Shown here piece by piece: positions 79-45,000 of a stretch of 64,000 bases of DNA. The stretch is from NCBI GenBank assembly GCA_025399215.1, contig MU621127.1, forward strand, positions 31,697 through 95,696. Reading direction: 5' to 3'. This DNA is from Globomyces pollinis-pini. Its lineage: Eukaryota > Chytridiomycota > Chytridiomycetes > Rhizophydiales > Globomycetaceae. The notes below the pieces were generated by a model. The model ran no database searches and was not told the DNA's origin. It worked only from the letters and a program-made list of their open reading frames with translations. How positions within the stretch are numbered: the stretch's first letter is position 1; each line of letters begins with the position of its first letter. A program made the translations under genes and the position numbers.

Positions 79-1314
79 TCAATTGTCACATTCATTCACA
101 AACTCATGTTTTTTCTTTCCAACACAACGAGATCCTCTCATATGAATAGAAAGATGATCTTTTCTTCGAAATCTCTTGCTACATCCACTACATCCATATC
201 TTCGTTCATCATTGTGAATCATGGTGTGTCGAATTAAATCGTGCTTACGAGAAAATTCATGTTCACATTCACCATACTCACATTTATATGGCTTTAATTT
301 CTGATGTGCTGCAGTTACATGTAGTTTTAAGGTATATGCTCTGGTATATGCTAACTGTTAGTGTGTCTCGTTTTGATTACCATTGTTACATCCTTCATAA
401 GTACATTTGTATAATTTTTCCCCTACTTGTTGTCGTTTAACAGGGATTGGGTTCTTAGTTTCAGAAGTTGCATCTGGCACGGGCAGTTTCTCTTGTTCAG
501 GTTGTTGATCTACTGGACTTGGGCTCCACTGTATTGGTGGTAAATCGGTAACAGATAAGTGGTGCAGTGATTGCATGGGATAACTTGGAGCTAAGAATTG
601 ACTATATAATGGCGAAGGGTGTGTTTTAGGGTAAGCTGTGTGCATTGGATAACATGGTGGTGATGGTTGATATTGTGAATAAGGAGGCGATGGTTGTGAT
701 TGACAATCTATTGGACCAAACATTTGACTCAATTCAGAATTTGAATATTGACTCGGTGAATTGAAGTTGGATAATTCTGATCTATTGGTATGTGGCAATG
801 AACTAGCGGAATCTGGTACCGTTATAGTAACAGTATCAGAAAAGAAAAAGGTATTGTTCATATCTTCAACCAAAAATGCCTCATTATAGTCTTCTACGTT
901 TCCTTCATCTAAAACATCACCCAAAACATCGTCTAATGATTCATTGTGGAATTTGGAATTGGCGTATAAACTGAAATTGATGCTATTGTTTGATGATTGA
1001 GGTTGATAAGGCTCTCCAGTTGAAAATGCAGAGACAGAATAAGAAGGAGAAGCATGATATGGATTTGCAGAATAGATTGGATAAGAACCAGCAGGACTTG
1101 CGCTATAAGACGCAGCAGGCGAGATTGCATATGGATAAGCAGGGGTAGAATGTGTTGAACATGGGGATATGGGGAACGAATGTTTTGGAGATAACAAGTA
1201 AGTATACGCTGGAGACTGTAAGTATTTATGTGATGGTAAGGATGGCTTTGGTTTGGTTTCCTGCGTTAATTTCGTGTCCAAATCCAAGGGTGGAGTAGAG
1301 AGTGACTGGCACAT
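79..1314 (-). CDS. Crz1-like C2H2 zinc-finger transcription factor, paralog A
   Basis: Nuclear DNA-binding regulator with a long Ser/Pro/Tyr-rich N-terminal half and three C-terminal C2H2 fingers. Finger 1 is split by a 30-nt intron at 351-380 just after its second cysteine. The fingers carry YTRAYTLKLH, FSRKHDLIRH and FRRKDHLSIH, and the last ends H-x4-C rather than with a second His, as in the Crz1 group. I chose the ATG at 1314 (MCQSLSTPPLD) because the paralog at 5234-6458 begins MSHLFPTPPLD; an upstream in-frame ATG at 1389 is possible. An acidic block before the fingers (DDVLGDVLDEGN, then FLVEDMNNTFFFSD and VTIT) is shared with two other genes here. The family resemblance to Crz1 is by finger layout; the target genes are unknown. 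Confidence in a C2H2 factor is high, in Crz1 orthology low. Confidence 0.85.
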
Positions 1315-5233: not shown

Positions 5234-6458
5234 TTAGAGTGACTTCATCGAAGGACAACGGGCTCCTTTAATATGTATGGTGAGATGATCCTTTCTTCGG
5301 AACTTCTTGGAACAACCACCACATTGAAACTTACGTTCATTGGTATGCACCTTAGTGTGTCGAATTAAATCGTGCTTTCTTGCAAACTTCAATGTACAGT
5401 TTCCGTGCTCGCATGCGAACGGTTTCAACTGTTCATGTGTTGATGTTATGTGTAATTTTAAGGTATATGCTCTTGTGTAAGCTACATAATTAGTATTTCA
5501 AAATCGGCTTACCGTTGTTACAACCACTATGTGGGCATTTGTGGATCTTTTCACAATCTGGTTGGACGGATTCAGTATCCAATGATTCAGTAGGCGATAA
5601 GTTCATTTCAAGATATGGAGGTGATGATATCACTTGCGAATATGTGGATGTTGACAGTATTTGAGCGTATGAAGGAGACGGTTGGATTTGACCATATGAA
5701 GGGGATGGTTGAATTTGGATGTATGATGGAGATGGTTGAATCTGGTTGAATGATGGAGATGGCTGGATCTGATTGAATGATGGTGAAGGCTGTATCTGAG
5801 TGTATGATGGAGAAGGTTGGATTTGTGCATATGAGGGGGATTGTTGTATTTGAGAATGCATTTGACTAAAAGCCGAAGAGTCCATCTTAAAATTGGGAGA
5901 AACTTGCCCCTGAGATTTGAAAGGTGCCAAGAAATTGGGTGATTCTGGTGTCTTGGTAGATGACGAAGGGCTTTTGGAATCAACTTCAGTTGAAATGGTG
6001 ACATTATCAGAGAAGAAAAGGGTATTATTCATATCATTAACCAAGAACGCTTCATTAAAATCTTCAGCGTTGCCTTCATCTAGTACATCACCAAGAATAT
6101 CATCCAAAGAATCATATTGAAACTTGGAATTGCTATACAAACTGAAATTCACATTATTTCTTTCATTTGGGAGTGAGAGGGATGATTGAGTTGGTTCATT
6201 AGGGGTCATTGAGACAGAGTATGAGGGAGAGGCTGCATATGAATTTGCAGGTGAAATTGCATAAGAGGTAGCAGGGGATATTCCATAAGCATTTGGACAT
6301 CCCAAGAAAGAATTTGCAGGAGATACCAAGTACGAATATGCAGGAGACTTCAAGTAAGCAGCAGGTTGTCTAAAAGTGTTTTTCTGATACACGTTTTGTG
6401 GATCATTTGATAAATTCAAAGTTGAATCTAAGGGAGGAGTAGGAAACAAATGGGACAT
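5234..6458 (-). CDS. Crz1-like C2H2 zinc-finger transcription factor, paralog B
   Basis: Close paralog of the gene at 79-1314, in the same orientation. The N-terminal half carries SP-rich repeats (SPAYSYLVSPANSF, SYAISPANSYAASPSYSVS) and a 9-residue tandem repeat QIQPSPSY(x), followed in the gene order by the shared acidic block (DDILGDVLDEGN, FLVNDMNNTLFFSD, VTIST). One intron at 5482-5512 (31 nt) splits finger 1 at the same codon as in paralog A. The three fingers are YTRAYTLKLH, FARKHDLIRH and FRRKDHLTIH, the last ending with Cys. Start chosen at ATG 6458 (MSHLFPTPPLD) by agreement with paralog A; an ATG at 6500 is an alternative. Probably a DNA-binding regulator; targets unknown. Confidence 0.85.
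5674..5855 (-). repeat. 27-bp coding tandem repeat (QIQPSPSYx)
   Basis: Six full 27-nt units (5674-5835) plus a partial one lie inside zinc-finger paralog B and encode the nonapeptide QIQPSPSY plus one variable residue. Units differ by several bases each, so the array is not brand new. The period and frame keep the reading frame intact. The repeat is absent from paralog A, which has PSPPYSQYQPSPP-like sequence in the same place. Confidence 0.9.
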
Positions 6459-22051: not shown

Positions 22052-24197
22052 TTAATAATGATAATATACGATATGATTCCAAAGATAACCCGAATAAAGT
22101 TCCACTTCTTTCAACATTCCCAAACCTTTATAATAATCCACCAAAAATGAATACGCATCATTCAACTTTTCACCATTAGACTATAAGATTAAAAAATTGA
22201 TTGGTCATTGGGTTACCAAATGTAGATTTTGGAAATGTTCATTGATATATTTCAAATAAAGTTTAGAGATGGTGATATTGAATTTAGTGTTTTTTAAATT
22301 GAGGTAAAGTTCAGCACATTTTGCATAATCAATAATGAGTATGATATCACAATTGATGGCACGATGTAAACATTTGATGGCTTGATGGATATTGTTTGTG
22401 GATTCATATGATGATGATAATGCTCCCCACATACGTGCATCATTTGGTCTAGTAGGTTAATTGATCAATATCAACCTAATGGCTGTTGCTTTTTGGTAAT
22501 AGTAAATGGAATAATTGTATAGTTGTAGGATATCATATGCTTGACCTAATCCAAACCTATAATAATCAAAATGTTTTGGTATCTTTTTACCATGCTCTAT
22601 AATCTTTTGGATTGATTTCTAAAGGTTAAAAAAAAATTGAATGAATATGTACCGGTTGCTCTTCGATAGACTTCTATAGCTGCTTTTGGATTATGTGTTT
22701 CTATATATTCATGACCAAGTAAAATCCATGCTGATGAGTAAGATTGATCTAATTTGATGGCTTTTGAGAAACTATCAATTGCTTTTTGATGATCATCCTT
22801 TGAACTATAATAATTGCCTTTGATTTTTAAATATCGTAATTGTACCTAATCATTAAAATATTGAATCTAATCAGTTGTACCTTTTTATAAAAATATGGTA
22901 AATGAAAAAAATACCTAATGAATAAATGAAAAAAGGTTTTGTTGAATCACCTATACAAACACAAGATTCAGGTCTGAATGGATTCCAAGAACTTATATGA
23001 TGAGCCAAATCACATAATTTATCAAGTTGTTTACGTACATACAAAACATTTGAATAGACATCCATAGATTCCATCAAAAAAGGATCTATTTCATTAATAT
23101 GATCAAAAAGTAATTCAGATTGTTCAAAATCTATTAATCATTAAAAAAAGAAGCGTATTACCTAAATGATTTAGCGATAATATTCAAACCTCCAATGTTA
23201 TGATATAAAATAGCACGTTGAATTTGACAAAATCTATTATTGGGTGCTAACGTATTTTGCATTTCAATGATTGGTTCCACAGCTTCCAATCCTTGATAGA
23301 GGTCATTTAAGGTTTTGATTTCAAAAGCTTGTTTTACAAATGAAGCTGGTAATTGTACTATGATTTCATTATACTAGGGAATGAGTTGGTAAATTGATTT
23401 ACCTTAACATTATGAATTTTAAATGGATTACCTCATTCGTTAGGTTTTTTGAATGGATTACCTGGCAACTGTTAGTTTGATTTCAGTACCTATGCAATTT
23501 AAGATATGAGTATATTACCTAAACAAATTTAGACATAAACACATTACCTAAAGATTAAGAAAAGATAAACAAAACCATTTCCATAGTTTCAATCAAAGAA
23601 TTCAATTCCAACCAAGCAGACCAATTCCAAGGATATTTATTTATCGATTGAATCAAAGCTTGTTTTGCATCATCCAAACGATCTACCAATTTACAAACCA
23701 CACCATATCTATGTAGTTTTTTAGGTGAATTAAAATTACAAGTATAGGATAAAACTATCAGGATGATTATTGTGAATATAATTTTCTAATGAATCTAATA
23801 ATTCTTTATAAAGACCAATTGAATGATTAGCTTTATAAAATTAAGATAAAGATTGAATACATTTTTTTGACAAGTCATGAATGATTGTATTTGAATGAAT
23901 GGCCAAGAAGGAAGCATAAAATGCCAAGAATATTGATTTTGTATCTGTTTGATTTCTTAGAGTATGAGTACATCTTTTGAATTCTTTAAGATCAAATAAT
24001 GATTTTGCGTAAAGGAATAGCGTATGATTATAAGATTTCATTGAATTATTTTGATTTGTTGGAATCGAATCTTTGGTATCCGAAAGACAAGATTGAGCAT
24101 TGGTTGATTGTGAATGAATGATATAATCCATTAACCAATGACTTGCAAATATTAATCCTCTATCGTTTAGATCGTTGATATAATCCAATGTGGACAT
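22052..24197 (-). CDS. cdc23: Anaphase-promoting complex subunit 8 (Cdc23), TPR protein
   Basis: Structural TPR subunit of the APC/C ubiquitin ligase. N-terminus MSTLDYINDLNDRGLIFASHW matches Apc8 (ERGL...SAKW). Reconstructed exons give SFILYLYGVVCKLVDRLDDA, WNWSAWLEL, AILYHNIGDFEQSELLFDHI, MDVYSNVLYVRKQ, RPESCVCIGNYYSSKDDHQ, DYRAWFGLGQAYDIL and RPNDARMWGALSS, each the family's hallmark. An apparent stop near 23838 lies inside a 30-nt intron (GTATTCAATC...AAAG), so the gene is not broken. It contains three multi-unit intron arrays (23374-23575, 23131-23189, 22818-22950), the densest set in the window. Start is the ATG at 24197. The C-terminus is short compared with animal Cdc23. Confidence 0.9.
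22818..22950 (-). other. Four abutting GT...AG intron units in APC8
   Basis: Reading along the gene, units are 22950-22915 (36 nt), 22914-22881 (34), 22880-22846 (35) and 22845-22818 (28). Every unit starts GT and ends AG, and each begins at the base after the previous one ends. The last two both start GTACAA. Removal joins ATA G to GC AAT TAT TAT, giving VCIGNYYS, the conserved Apc8 motif. Confidence 0.8.
23131..23189 (-). other. Two abutting GT...AG intron units in APC8
   Basis: Units of 28 nt (23189-23162) and 31 nt (23161-23131). Removing only the second leaves a stop (TTT AGA TTT TGA). Removing both gives YHNIGDFEQSELLF, matching Apc8. Confidence 0.8.
23374..23575 (-). other. Seven abutting GT...AG intron units in APC8
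   Basis: Along the gene: 23575-23548 (28 nt), 23547-23519 (29), 23518-23490 (29), 23489-23462 (28), 23461-23432 (30), 23431-23403 (29), 23402-23374 (29). Boundaries are exact AG|GT with no intervening base; six begin GTA and the first begins GTT. Units 2 and 3 align well with each other, and units 5 and 6 share GTAATCCATT. Removal of all 202 nt joins GAA ATG to TAT AAT GAA in frame within a helical TPR protein. Confidence 0.85.
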
Positions 24198-24357: not shown

Positions 24358-24878
24358 TTATTTTGAGATACCAATGACACCACAACAAACACGAGCACCA
24401 GCATTACCAGTAGTTTTTGATAATTCATGAGTGGTTAAACCAAGATCATCAGCATCACCATGACAAACAACAGTACGACCAATAACGGAATGAGGTCCAA
24501 TGAGTTTTACTTGAGCATCTGACATGACGACTTTTACGGTCCCATCAGCTTGAGCTACGACATTACCCAAGTCTCCAGCATGACGAATTGCAGCATCTGG
24601 AGCACCATGGGTGAGACCATTTGGATTGTAGTGACCCCCAGCAGATACACAACCATTAGTGTTATCACCGAATTCACTTTTATGATTAGTAAATAATTAA
24701 TTGATACTGAATGTGGAAACCGTGGTTACCAGGAGTGAGACCTTGTAAAGAGATGGTGATAGTAGTTGGATCTGATTCCACCTTTTTATTAGTATTCAAG
24801 TTCTTACTGATTGTTCGAAAGAGACTGTTCCAGATACATTTGAATCACCTTTTAAAACACAAACAGCTTTTACCATCT
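24358..24878 (-). CDS. sod1: Cu/Zn superoxide dismutase
   Basis: Converts superoxide to peroxide and oxygen in the cytosol. ATG at 24878 ([16 protein letters not shown]). Exons read VSFEQS, then [18 protein letters not shown] (metal-binding His pair), [10 protein letters not shown], then [24 protein letters not shown] and [20 protein letters not shown] C-terminus ([16 protein letters not shown]). Cys and His ligands expected for copper and zinc are present. Introns of 26 and 31 nt. No signal or transit peptide, so cytosolic. Length of about 154 residues is normal for the family. Confidence 0.95.
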
Positions 24879-25038
24879 TGAAAATAAAATTGAAAATTTC
24901 AACTTTCTTTTTTATCCGCATCAAAAGTGGCTCATTCTGATCATGCAAAACTAACTTTAAAAAATGTAAAGTTTAATTAAAGTTTAAAGTAAGTCAATTA
25001 CTCATCATGAATCATTTGTAAATAATGCCTTTTATTCC

Positions 25039-25992
25039 TTACATTCGGAATTTACCCCGTGATGATCGATTAAGTAAAATCTCAGATCGACTAGCTTTAC
25101 GAAGTATACCTTCTCTTTCCCTTATAAATACTCCCCCTTCTGTTTCGCGTATCATAAATGCTACCTTATCAAATATAAAATGAATTTACCATGTTTCCCT
25201 CCTACTACTACATCCTTTCCTATAGTTTCTTCTTCACTATCTGCTATCTCCCCCTCAAAAGCTTTCTTGGCTTTTTCATTCAATCGTATCTCAACATTAA
25301 CATGTGGTTCTAATTTCATCAACATGGCTGCATCCTATTCATTTAATCTTTAAAAATTAAACTTCTGCTGTTAATGTCTCTTCTTCTTCTAATAATTGAA
25401 CAAAAGGATTCATAGTCTTGATAGTATTCTCTCGCATTGGTTCTTGTTGTATCGGATTCTTTCGCATTTCATTATATCGAATCGTTATTGGATTCAATAA
25501 TTTCTCCATTCCTGATACAAGATTTTCTTGAATTTCCTTATTCTAATCATTAATAACATTTGATATTAACTTGTTCAAGATGTTTCTTTTGTAATGATTT
25601 TAATTTAAGAATGGCTTGAACTCGAATAATTGATATACCAAATACTTCAGCAAGTGCAAATGGAGACCATTTGGCAGGATCACTTTCATACAAGTTGAAG
25701 ATATCCATTCTTTAAGATTAATCAACTATTTGATTTTACCTAAAGTTAATATAATATTACAATACCTTCAGAGTTAATAAATGAATAAATACCTAGTTTT
25801 ATCAGATAAAGGGAATTGGATTTTATAAAAAGGATTATGAATAAAAGGGATATTTTTATCACTTGAGTACACTGGTTTGTTTGCCAAGTAATCGGTGACT
25901 TGTACATTAGTCTTATTAGCTCTTGTTCTTAAATATCGAACTCCATTCATGTTGATTCCTTTGCTGATTCCGATCAAATGTCTATTCATCAT
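25039..25992 (-). CDS. Putative mitochondrial ribosomal small-subunit protein, mS45/Bot1 type
   Basis: The N-terminus MMNRHLIGISKGINMNGVRY is basic and hydroxylated like a mitochondrial targeting peptide. A conserved core, IPFIHNPFYKIQFPLSDKTR then ESDPAKWSPFALAEVFGISI and RVQAILKLKSLQKKHLEQ, resembles the fungal Bot1/Mrps35 family (eukaryotic mitochondrial regulator domain), where 'NP.Y.P..PLSD' precedes a helix-turn region. The rest is charged and ends SSRGKFRM. Between the two core pieces lies a three-unit intron array (25710-25792). The family call is from remembered motifs and is moderate; that it is a real, spliced, probably mitochondrial protein is firmer. Confidence 0.6.
25710..25792 (-). 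other. Three abutting GT...AG intron units
   Basis: Units 25792-25766 (27 nt), 25765-25740 (26) and 25739-25710 (30), all starting GTA and ending AAG or TAG. Removal joins ACT AG to A ATG GAT, giving SDKTRMDIFNLYESDP. Confidence 0.75.
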
Positions 25993-30863: not shown

Positions 30864-31709
30864 ATGTATCCATCTGGAAGTCCATTTTCAGAGTCTATGA
30901 ATCTCAAGACTCCATCACCATCAAGTTCAATTCCAATGAATAGCTTTCAAAACAATCATTGGTTATCCCATCATTCCAGTCATATCTGCTCACCATTATC
31001 AAGTTATGTTTTCCCACCCTTTAATCTACAATTATCACCTACGTATAACACGATCCATACTCCTGCTTCAGAACCTACTCCAATTACATCTTTTTATACA
31101 TTCCCAAATGAAAGTATGTCAGATACTCACAGTTTGTACAATAATCGTAATCAACCTTATGAATCCGTCACAGATATTCTTGATGATTTACTACCGGACA
31201 AAGATTCACCAGATAAAGATTCAATAGATTCGATTGATGATTTCAATGATCTGAATGATAAATTTATTGGGGATGATATGAAAGATACAGTGTTCTTCTC
31301 AGATAAAGTAACAATTACAACATTACATGATAAAGTCATTCCAACCTATCAACCACTATCATTACCAAGTCCAATTCCTTTTAAACCACTTCATTCTCCT
31401 TCTGTTGAACTTATTTTCTCCAATTCAAATTTATCCCATCAATGTCCATATCCAGAATGTTCCAAGATATATACTCGAGCATATACATTAAAATTACACA
31501 TTTCTGCATCTCATCATCATTTAAAACCCTTTGAATGTACTCATAATGGATGTGAACAAAAGTTTGCAAGAAAGCATGATTTAATTCGACATTGTAAAAC
31601 ACACTTGAATGAACGATTATTTGAATGTCAAGATTGTAACCGAAAATTTCGAAGAAAAGATCATTTGATGATGCATATCCGTGGTTCGAGGTGTAAACGA
31701 AGATGCTGA
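30864..31709 (+). CDS. Crz1-like C2H2 zinc-finger transcription factor, paralog C
   Basis: 281-residue relative of the factors at 79-1314 and 5234-6458, here with no intron: the finger-1 codon interrupted in both paralogs is continuous (CSKIYTRAYTLKLH). Fingers 2 and 3 are FARKHDLIRHCKTH and FRRKDHLMMHIRGSRC. It retains the shared acidic block in weaker form (VTDILDDLLPDKDS, then DDMKDTVFFSDKVTITT). The N-terminus is Ser/Pro rich but lacks the SPANSY repeats. Predicted nuclear regulator, targets unknown. Loss of the intron suggests retroposition or precise intron loss after duplication. Confidence 0.85.
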   Translation: MYPSGSPFSESMNLKTPSPSSSIPMNSFQNNHWLSHHSSHICSPLSSYVFPPFNLQLSPTYNTIHTPASEPTPITSFYTFPNESMSDTHSLYNNRNQPYESVTDILDDLLPDKDSPDKDSIDSIDDFNDLNDKFIGDDMKDTVFFSDKVTITTLHDKVIPTYQPLSLPSPIPFKPLHSPSVELIFSNSNLSHQCPYPECSKIYTRAYTLKLHISASHHHLKPFECTHNGCEQKFARKHDLIRHCKTHLNERLFECQDCNRKFRRKDHLMMHIRGSRCKRRC

Positions 31710-42038: not shown

Positions 42039-45000
42039 ATGCTACGACTCCGAAGATACTCTACTGCCAAACTGTCTATTGGAATCAGACAAGAAGCTAA
42101 AAACAGATGGGAACGCCGGGTACCTTTGGTCCCAGATCAGGTTGAACGCTTAGTCAAAGAACTGGGTATGTTCTGGTCTCTCACTTTCAATCATAGGTTT
42201 GCTTTTGTTCTTTAACCTTATTTTCAGGTATCGCAAAAACCCCAGATTAACGTCTAGGTGCTACTGTATTCATTCAACCTTCAACTAAACGTGTCATCCC
42301 AGATGAAAAATACACTGCAGTATCATTATTCTATTATTTTAATATTAGGTTGGTGCTATTCTGGAAAATGATTTGTCAAAGGCAGATATAATTTTGGGAG
42401 GTATTCAGTACATTATAAATCTTACAGGATAGTCAAGGAAGTTCCTATTCCTGACCTTATCAAAGGAAAAACGTAGTTTTCGTTTGGAATTCTAATATTA
42501 GATATATGTACTTTTCACATACACACAAAGGTCAGCATTATAATATGCCAATGTTAAAATCTGTGCTGGACAAGGTATAATTAACATGCTTATTCTAAGG
42601 ATATTCGTCTTATTGATTATGAATTGCTAAAGGATAAAGATGGAAGGAGATTGGTACAATTTAGTAAATTTGCAGGATATGCTGGTAAACCATTATATCT
42701 TTTTATACCCCAGGAATGATTGATGGATTACATGCATTGGGTCACAGATTACTTGCTTTAGGTCATGGAAACCCTTTTTTGGTATTATTTAAGTCTAACG
42801 ATAGGCTATTGGTATGTCATACATGTATCGCTGCGTAGCTGATGCTCGATTGGATGTTACCAGAACTGGGCAAGTCATCATGGATGATGGTTTGCCTAAA
42901 TCTCTTGGCCCAATGATCTTTGTGATTGTTGGTGATGGAAACGTGTCCAGAGTAAGCCTATAACTTCTAAATATAGGGTGCACTTCATGTATTTAAATGT
43001 TTACCACATCAATGGGTCCGTCCAGAAGAATTGGAAGCGCTTTCGAAATCAAAGGATTTTGACAACCACAAAGTTTACCTTTGTCAGGTTACTGCCAAAG
43101 ATTGTAAACTACAAATTTGATTGACTGTTAGTTATTGTTGATAAAAATGGAAATTATGATGAAAGCGATTATTTTACCAAACCAGAGAAATATTCCTCAG
43201 TATTTCATAAAAAGGTAGGCTATTATCTGCCATAACAATTTAGATTGCCCCATATGCCCGTCTGATTTTGAATGGTATATTCTGGACAAAGCAATATCCT
43301 CGTTTAATGACGATTGAACAGTCCAAACAACTAGCTATGGAGAAAAAACTCAATCTGTTAACTCTCGCCGATGTTTCATGTGACATTAATGTATGGCTTT
43401 TATAATGTAACAACAGGGTTCATTTGAGTTTATGGGACAATCTTCTACAATTGATGACCCATTCTTTATGTATGATCCAATCAAAAACGAAACTCATTCA
43501 AAGTAATTAGTAATACTACTTATCGTTTTAGCTTGGAAGGGAATGGAATTCAAATTATGTCCATTGACAACCTACCGACCGAAATGCCTTTGGAAGCTAG
43601 TGAATTTTTCAGTGAATCTCTTTATCCTGTTGTTGCAGAAATGGTTAAAGGAAACTTTGACCATCCAGTTGTAAAAGGTGCAACTATCACAAACGATTCA
43701 GGAAAGTTGGAATCTCAACACGCTCATTTGGAAACGGTTATTGAGCGAACATTAGCATCACAGTACAATAATTACTTTTGCTAATAATCGTTAGGGATGC
43801 AACAGTGCAGGGTTCTAGAAAAATTCTATTGCTAGGATCTGGCTTTGTAGCTAAACCTCTGGTTGATTATCTCTTGCGCAATCCAGGATACTCTGTCACC
43901 ATTGGTAATGGAATGGAAATTTAACATATTAGCTAGCAATATGAAAGAAGAGGCATTAAATCTTTCACAAAACAGACCAAGAGCACCAGTTGTACCTTTG
44001 GATGTGTCCAACAAAGAATCTCTAGGTTCTCTTGTGTCTTCTCATGATATTGTGGTCAGGTATATATATCAGTGATTAACATTACAAATAGTTTTGTCCC
44101 TGCTACAATGCACCCAATTGTTGCAGAAGAGTGTTTAAAGTATAACAAAAATTTAGTTACTGCAAGTTATATTTCTCCTGCTATGAAAGCATTGGATAAT
44201 AGGTAATCCATATGATAAAAAATTGACTGCAATATAGAGCGAAAGCAGCAGGCCTAACTTTAATGAACGAAATTGGTCTTGACCCTGGTATTGATCATTT
44301 GACTGCTTGTCAAATGTTTGATCATGTCAAATCAAATAATGGAATCATAACTTCGTTCGTTTCTTGGTGTGGTGGTCTTCCAGCTCCTGAAGTATCGAAT
44401 AACCCTCTTGGATATAAGTTCAGTTGGAGTCCAAAGGGAGTTTTATTGGCTGGATTAAACTCTGCCAAATTCAAGCGAGATGGAAAGGTGCATTGGATGA
44501 ATATTCTAATTGTTAGTTTATTGAAATTCCTGGCGAACAGTTACTTGCAAGTGCCATTGATGTGCCGATTTTCAAAGGATATTCATTTGAAGGGTTACCA
44601 AATCGTGATTCCAATGCTTATATTGATATTTATAAATTGGATAACAACCATCTAGAAACTATGTTTCGGGGAACTCTTCGTTATAAAGGCTATTCAGAGC
44701 TGATGTATATGTTTTCTCAATTGGGCTGCCTCAGCACTACCGTGAACAACCAATTAAAGAGCGGTATTTCTTGGGTTTGTGTGCCTTTAAGCTGAACTAT
44801 TAGGGTGATTTGATGGCTTCTATGGTGGGCAAAAATATTCATTTGGGCTTAACTGAGAAATTGGGTGGCAATTTTAATCAGAACCAAATTGCTAGACTTT
44901 CTTCAGCCATCAGTTGGTTGGAAATGGATGCTAAGGATCGGGAAGTGCATCCTTCTGAATCCGTTCTAGATGCATTTTGTGCGCTCTTGCAAGAAAAACT

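Follow-up and report, generated by a model that had tools for sequence, protein, structure and literature searches.

In recursive splicing, as described for Drosophila and human genes, an acceptor and a donor are juxtaposed as AG|GT, the site has the appearance of an exon of zero nucleotides, and a donor is regenerated when the preceding segment is removed. Drosophila ratchet points occur predominantly in long introns and, according to excerpts of the report, only appear to be zero-nucleotide exons, requiring a cryptic exon (PMC8605326). Fungal stwintrons are defined, in excerpts of another report (PMC8469720), by an internal intron which interrupts the donor, branch point or acceptor of an outer intron; together they make up a single intervening sequence, whose removal presumably takes consecutive U2-type reactions. 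Passages on human UBC describe a tandem array of dual-specific AG|GT sites which bound coding ubiquitin monomers and give rise to variable products (PMC10809524). Repeat expansion is reported to multiply introns in CNN00420 of Cryptococcus (PMC2395259), and for an RdRp gene of potato, tandem genomic duplication is reported as the source of intron gain (PMC4974935). Both cases concern single genes, and zero-exon joins are not mentioned in the excerpts of these two reports.

The DNA considered here, a 64-kb window (the whole stretch that was analysed) from a chytrid of the Rhizophydiales (Chytridiomycota), contains a noncoding block which divides exhaustively into seven intron-sized units. Like ratchet points, its six internal joins all are juxtaposed AG|GT, as are 54 of the 56 joins left unspecified in a genome-wide search. 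Removal of a unit would, as at ratchet points, regenerate a donor. Unlike the Drosophila class, the arrays are not located in long introns, their totals being 59–365 nt in nine tabulated arrays, and they comprise up to 12 complete minimal introns of about 29 nt. Since each unit is a complete minimal intron, removal would proceed by intron definition, probably without a cryptic exon, for which the next acceptor, within about 29 nt, leaves little room. As with stwintrons, successive U2-type reactions would presumably remove a single intervening sequence. In contrast to stwintrons as characterized in the excerpts, the units stand side by side and no splicing element is interrupted; all seven have contiguous GT and AG ends. 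The chytrid arrays share with UBC a tandem series of AG|GT sites which can act as donor and as acceptor. They differ from the UBC array in being noncoding, intron-sized and uniformly absent from the deposited protein P0001, and six of the seven unit lengths are not multiples of 3. Tandem duplication is common to the chytrid arrays and the Cryptococcus and potato genes; however, what is repeated here is the bare intron, and the arrays are widespread in one genome.

No description of such arrays was found in the open-access literature among the matches listed, and the words "chytrid", "Globomyces" and "tandem" do not occur in the main text of an introner paper (PMC9860276). The arrays offer a natural, repeated system in which to ask how introns multiply, namely through tandem duplication of the intron itself with graded divergence between copies. 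They also bear on whether a cryptic exon is needed for the processing of zero-nucleotide exons, and on what determines the range of sizes suited to intron definition. They suggest that an intron can lengthen through the copying of entire introns and be taken out one piece at a time.

The seven-unit block of the APC8 gene

A preliminary description of this DNA, made from the sequence alone, had proposed that the block consists of seven complete GT...AG introns joined head to tail without intervening exons. Read on the minus strand from 23575 to 23374, the block indeed leaves a remainder of zero, with the unit lengths given in Table 1 and AG|GT at every internal join. When the 202 nt were shuffled 20,000 times with preservation of dinucleotides and with the GT and AG ends fixed, not one of the shuffles contained six or more AGGT, and none could be tiled into units of 21–38 nt. 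The preliminary description had estimated about 0.6 chance occurrences of AGGT; the mean over the shuffles was 1.02. Regular spacing of AGGT, which the preliminary description had likewise emphasized, is genuine at the block, but insufficient as a sole indicator: the window comprises eight chains of at least three AGGT spaced by 22–40 nt, which, judged from the gene model and by eye, correspond to three arrays, one possible array (42166–42257), and four cases in coding sequence or ordinary introns.

Table 1. Positions, composition and support of the APC8 gene model, the units of its longest array, and further intron arrays
Feature	Position	Strand	Composition	Flanks, signals or likeness	Support
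APC8 (CDC23) gene model	22052..24197	-	nine intron positions, of which three hold arrays		human CDC23 (4ui9_C), P0001
Seven-unit array in APC8	23374..23575	-	202 nt	...LIETMEM / YNEIIVQ...	tiling, shuffles, exon join
Unit 1 of this array	23548..23575	-	28 nt	GTTTTG...TTAG; YTRAY 8 nt from 3' end	
Unit 2	23519..23547	-	29 nt	similar to unit 3	
Unit 3	23490..23518	-	29 nt	similar to unit 2	
Unit 4	23462..23489	-	28 nt	YTRAY 11 nt from 3' end	
Unit 5	23432..23461	-	30 nt	similar to unit 6; YTRAY 9 nt from 3' end	
Unit 6	23403..23431	-	29 nt	similar to unit 5	
Unit 7	23374..23402	-	29 nt		tiling
Two-unit array in APC8	23131..23189	-	28+31 nt (59 nt)	HNIG / DFEQSE	gap-free to human CDC23
Four-unit array in APC8	22818..22950	-	36+34+35+28 nt (133 nt)	CVCIG / NYYSSK	gap-free to human CDC23
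Three-unit array near start of neighbouring gene	25710..25792	-	27+26+30 nt		ab initio only
Twelve-unit array, SNF1/SIK/MARK-type kinase			365 nt	NMNVKIT / DFGLSNF (before DFG motif)	homologue 8r4o_A
Ten-unit array, PHYHD1-like gene			285 nt		homologue 2opw_A, E 3.7e-50
Nine-unit array, pantothenate kinase gene (two further arrays)	L031		247 nt		homologue 6uj5_A
Five-unit array, SAMHD1-like gene			142 nt		homologue 5yhw_A
Six-unit array	L023		27-nt units		

Splicing of the gene model yields a protein of 519 residues, which aligns with human CDC23/APC8 (4ui9_C) with an E value of 8e-79. As claimed beforehand, the exons flanking the seven-unit block join in frame, and the spliced protein matches the human one without an extra block at this place; the human chain shows a two-residue gap within three residues past the join. 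A protein search with the model retrieved P0001, a hypothetical protein of Globomyces pollinis-pini (BC833DRAFT_523616, 428 residues), with 100% identity over 82% of the query. P0001 omits all three arrays of the gene, and its joins are identical to those of our model. The first unit (36 nt) of the four-unit array is open in frame, and the DNA alone would also allow three units plus an exon of 12 codons; those 36 nt are omitted from P0001.

The similarity reported earlier between units 2 and 3 and between units 5 and 6 is real, albeit modest: 0.9% and 0.2%, respectively, of random intron pairs score as high. Two of the six adjoining pairs of the block are recognizably alike, and Tandem Repeats Finder reports a repeat with a period of 30 and 2.5 copies at 23390–23463, around units 5 and 6. 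The strict branch motif YTRAY is present in three of the seven units (1, 4 and 5), compared to 57.5% of called introns.

The three-unit array of the neighbouring gene in Table 1 belongs to an ab initio gene model (24358–25950) which probably fuses two genes. A further three-unit array (31+31+30 nt), only a possible one, at 42166–42257 on the plus strand, was called only under a flat length prior; the gene whose predicted start lies downstream of it is presumably saccharopine-pathway-like. Elsewhere in the window, the predicted proteins of 79–1314 (-), 5490–6458 (-) and 30864–31709 (+) share a similar layout; those of 79–1314 and 30864–31709 have zinc-finger-like stretches at their C-termini, and the prediction at 5490–6458 ends early.

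Ordinary introns and the genome-wide occurrence of arrays

A purpose-written ab initio gene finder was run on the window and on 200 kb of the contigs C1–C3 (264 kb in total), with a length prior favouring short introns in the main run. Among the 411 introns called, 393 measured 21–38 nt (mean 28.6 nt; 15 of them are array units split by the finder), so the units of the block have the size of ordinary introns, as the preliminary description had stated. Interior exons of length 0 were called nine times, and there was one of 1–12 nt. No call fell between 39 and 70 nt; this gap is weak evidence, because the length prior of the model disfavours such introns, and planted introns of 39–73 nt were recovered exactly in 78 of 195 cases. 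By our arithmetic, introns of 39–70 nt are bounded at roughly 2% of all introns. Under a flat length prior, 360 introns were called, including 19 of 39–70 nt, of which four tile and 15 do not; we think that most of the latter arose when short introns were merged with exons which the finder had missed, and this run, which seems to swallow short exons, was left out of the counts. The main run gave 18 calls longer than 38 nt. Two are pieces of arrays, seven of the other 16 were examined individually, and the rest are probably gene fusions or runs over N. In genomes with introns as tiny as these, annotation may enter as one long intron what is an array of many.

Some introns of this fungus are long and yet have no internal joins. 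A 113-nt intron in CSN3 (C3:23690-23802, plus strand) and a septin intron of about 75 nt, the latter with a small alignment gap at its join, do not tile and are supported by homology. Coding flanks make two further joinless introns probable: one of 179 nt (C3:43726-43904, plus strand), in a gene which we take to be choline-kinase-like, and one of 286 nt (L020 6920-7205, equivalent to C3:46920-47205, plus strand), in a presumably DIL-domain-like gene. The 286-nt intron is made up of a 32-nt unit in five to six copies, several of which contain the donor-like GTATTCAT, and has no AG|GT, indicating that the growth of a repeat within an intron need not produce complete introns. A strict upper limit to intron length, which the empty range of 39–70 nt might have suggested, is ruled out by these four introns; the spliceosome of this fungus probably removes longer introns as well. 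Both the 113-nt and the 179-nt intron start with GTATGTTC, and they possibly form a class of their own, distinguished by a stronger donor.

A genome-wide excess of spaced AGGT had been set beforehand as a check on the proposal, and such an excess was found. With the pattern AGGTA-N18..32-AGGTA-N18..32-AGGTA, tightened so that both the second and the third join had to read TAG|GTA, the genome gave 123 matches, compared to six for the reversed pattern. The loose form of the pattern, with a spacing of 23–37 nt, gave 308 matches versus 115 reversed. When the spacing was widened to 45–59 nt, the genome gave 42 matches versus 94 reversed, which shows that the reversed pattern is the commoner one by chance; by eye, about two thirds of the 42 represent every second join of intron-sized arrays. 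The histogram of AGGT pair distances in the 264 kb rises at 28–33 nt, a feature which does not distinguish arrays from ordinary introns lying between an exon that ends in AG and one that starts with GT.

The 100 matches listed of the 123 resolve into 64 arrays on 54 contigs. Arrays of two to twelve units occur in many genes of this fungus. For nine arrays that were tabulated, the totals are 59–365 nt and the units measure 23–36 nt. With merged pieces included, we read eight arrays in the 264 kb and a possible ninth (C1:24679-24736, which can be read with a 5-nt exon or as a split into 32+26 nt); scaled to 18.5 Mb, the eight correspond very roughly to 560, i.e., several hundred, arrays in the genome. 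In all five genes compared with solved homologues (APC8, the PHYHD1-like and SAMHD1-like genes, the SNF1/SIK/MARK-type kinase and the pantothenate kinase), the match continues across the exon join, and no insertion is seen where the array lies. The tiling, the exon joins and the genome-wide excess together back the initial reading of the block as an array of whole introns. The pantothenate kinase gene contains three arrays (nine, at least six and at least four units), as APC8 contains three, and arrays may cluster in certain genes.

Internal joins and splicing signals

To assess the joins in positions on which the search had no influence, we collected arrays with one stretch of 51–69 nt left free between two joins; this pattern had 56 matches in the genome and six when reversed. 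In 54 of the 56, matches which overlap within arrays so that the effective sample is smaller, the free stretch contained an intact AG|GT dividing it into two units of 24–40 nt (mean 29.5 nt); shuffling gave 3.7%. The two exceptions look unrelated to arrays by eye. The neighbouring positions of these 54 joins are close to the consensus: position -3 is T in 46, A in six, C in two and G in none (called introns: T 81%, G 0%), and position +3 is A in 47, T in six, G in one and C in none (called introns: A 90%, C 0%). At a divergence of 15%, about 27% of unconstrained AG|GT joins are expected to be lost.

Splicing signals within the units were evaluated in a set of 162 distinct units (mean 29.3 nt, standard deviation 2.2 nt) from the 100 listed strict matches, on 54 contigs. 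As the strict pattern demands GTA and TAG and a unit length of 26–34 nt, ends and lengths of this set are not independent evidence; accordingly, the agreement of unit lengths with those of other introns of 26–34 nt (Kolmogorov-Smirnov test, p 0.46) carries little weight. The branch motif YTRAY, located 5–18 nt from the 3' end, occurs in 58.0% of the units and 57.5% of the 393 called introns, as compared to 24–27% of shuffled sequences; for chance GTA...TAG segments, of which 898 were scored, the figure is 23.8%. As a class, the units thus combine GT...AG ends, which the pattern requires in these 162, with a branch motif, as U2-type introns do. Donor scores over positions +4 to +8 were 0.00 for array units, 0.30 for other introns and -0.38 for chance segments; upstream of the acceptor, the scores were 0.63, 1.04 (p 0.001 for units versus other introns) and -1.23, respectively. 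At both sites, array units thus clearly outscore chance segments but fall short of other introns.

Removal and origin of the arrays

We consider it likely that the block consists of seven complete spliceosomal introns in tandem, which have been multiplied in part by tandem duplication and are each removed separately; for piecemeal removal, the intact internal joins and the complete signals of the units provide indirect support. Each unit would be spliced out on its own, through intron definition. Whichever donor and acceptor are paired first, what remains would be a complete array of fewer units or else the finished exon join, so that the mRNA would not depend on the order of removal or on the pairing of sites. 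If a unit lost its donor or acceptor, it would fuse with the adjacent one, giving an intron of about 58 nt. This spliceosome perhaps handles such a length badly, in which case joins would be kept; we regard this explanation of their upkeep as weak. Extended to the whole genome, the model would describe modular introns of 2–12 minimal units, born by exact duplication and consumed in any order, with an optimum of about 29 nt and poor processing of about 58 nt; towards this wider version we lean only slightly.

As to the origin of the units, 27 of the 100 adjoining pairs are recognizable duplicates, exceeding the 99th percentile of between-array similarity, with a mean divergence of 15% substitutions. 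At locus L022, units 2 and 3 are identical, a likeness extends over units 2–6, and unit 8 is similar to unit 1. Part of the arrays thus seems to have been made by local duplication, in tandem, of entire units. The preliminary idea of growth by copying whole introns agrees with these 27 pairs, but does not extend in recognizable form to the other 73, which may either have diverged further or never have been copies. If slippage or unequal exchange duplicated an entire intron with AG on both sides, AG|GT would be formed at the new join, and the exonic AG before the donor together with the terminal AG of the intron would provide a natural slippage register.

Several other explanations have to be weighed. 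A chance division of AT-rich noncoding sequence might be invoked, as AGGT is short, about one copy is expected in 202 nt, and chains of three or four occur by chance in the window; however, it is refuted by the outcome of the shuffles (none of 20,000) and by the 123 genome matches against six for the reversed pattern, and we reject it, its probability being practically nil. That the arrays are artefacts of assembly or repeats is hardly more credible. The assembly does consist of 459 contigs with some runs of N, but the listed arrays are spread over 54 contigs, the units differ from one another in many of the displayed arrays, and the flanking exons encode continuous conserved proteins in five of five genes. 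A more serious, albeit unlikely, alternative is one-step removal, in which the first donor is spliced directly to the last acceptor, with the internal units as passive leftovers of duplication. Joinless introns of 75–286 nt exist, the one of 286 nt holds a tandem repeat without joins, and the deposited protein P0001 fits one-step removal equally well; since non-tiling introns occur, size alone does not force piecemeal removal. Passive leftovers, however, would be expected to lose about 27% of their joins at the divergence of the duplicates, whereas the unspecified joins are intact in 54 of 56 cases and have near-consensus neighbours. The joins are moreover intact although 73 of 100 adjoining pairs are not recognizably alike, and the branch motif is about as frequent in the units as in other introns (58.0% versus 57.5%). 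It is thus the upkeep of joins and signals, and not a size limit, that favours piecemeal removal.

A further alternative concerns the origin only and would leave splicing unit by unit unchanged: unrelated introns might have been inserted repeatedly at AG|GT joins, by reverse splicing or in an introner-like manner. The lack of recognizable similarity in 73 of 100 adjoining pairs, and in all but two of the six pairs in the longest APC8 array, is in line with this proposal, which we nevertheless find rather doubtful. Where likeness is recognizable, it is local and occurs in runs, as in units 2–6 at L022 and among the units at L023, and a dispersed intron family was not found in the part tested: the best of 12,795 between-contig pairs of the 162 units from 54 contigs scored 11, compared to 10 for shuffled units, and among called introns none of 72,010 pairs reached a score of 14. 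With between-contig extremes no better than those of shuffled sequence, introners or another dispersed intron family were rejected as a source within the 162 units tested.

The gene harbouring the six-unit array at L023 is, judging from its motif, presumably a short-chain dehydrogenase gene. Within the stretch L023 674-850, the first 8 nt of this array, GTAAAAGA, are identical to the start of the following exon, as if the array had begun as a tandem duplication of coding sequence.
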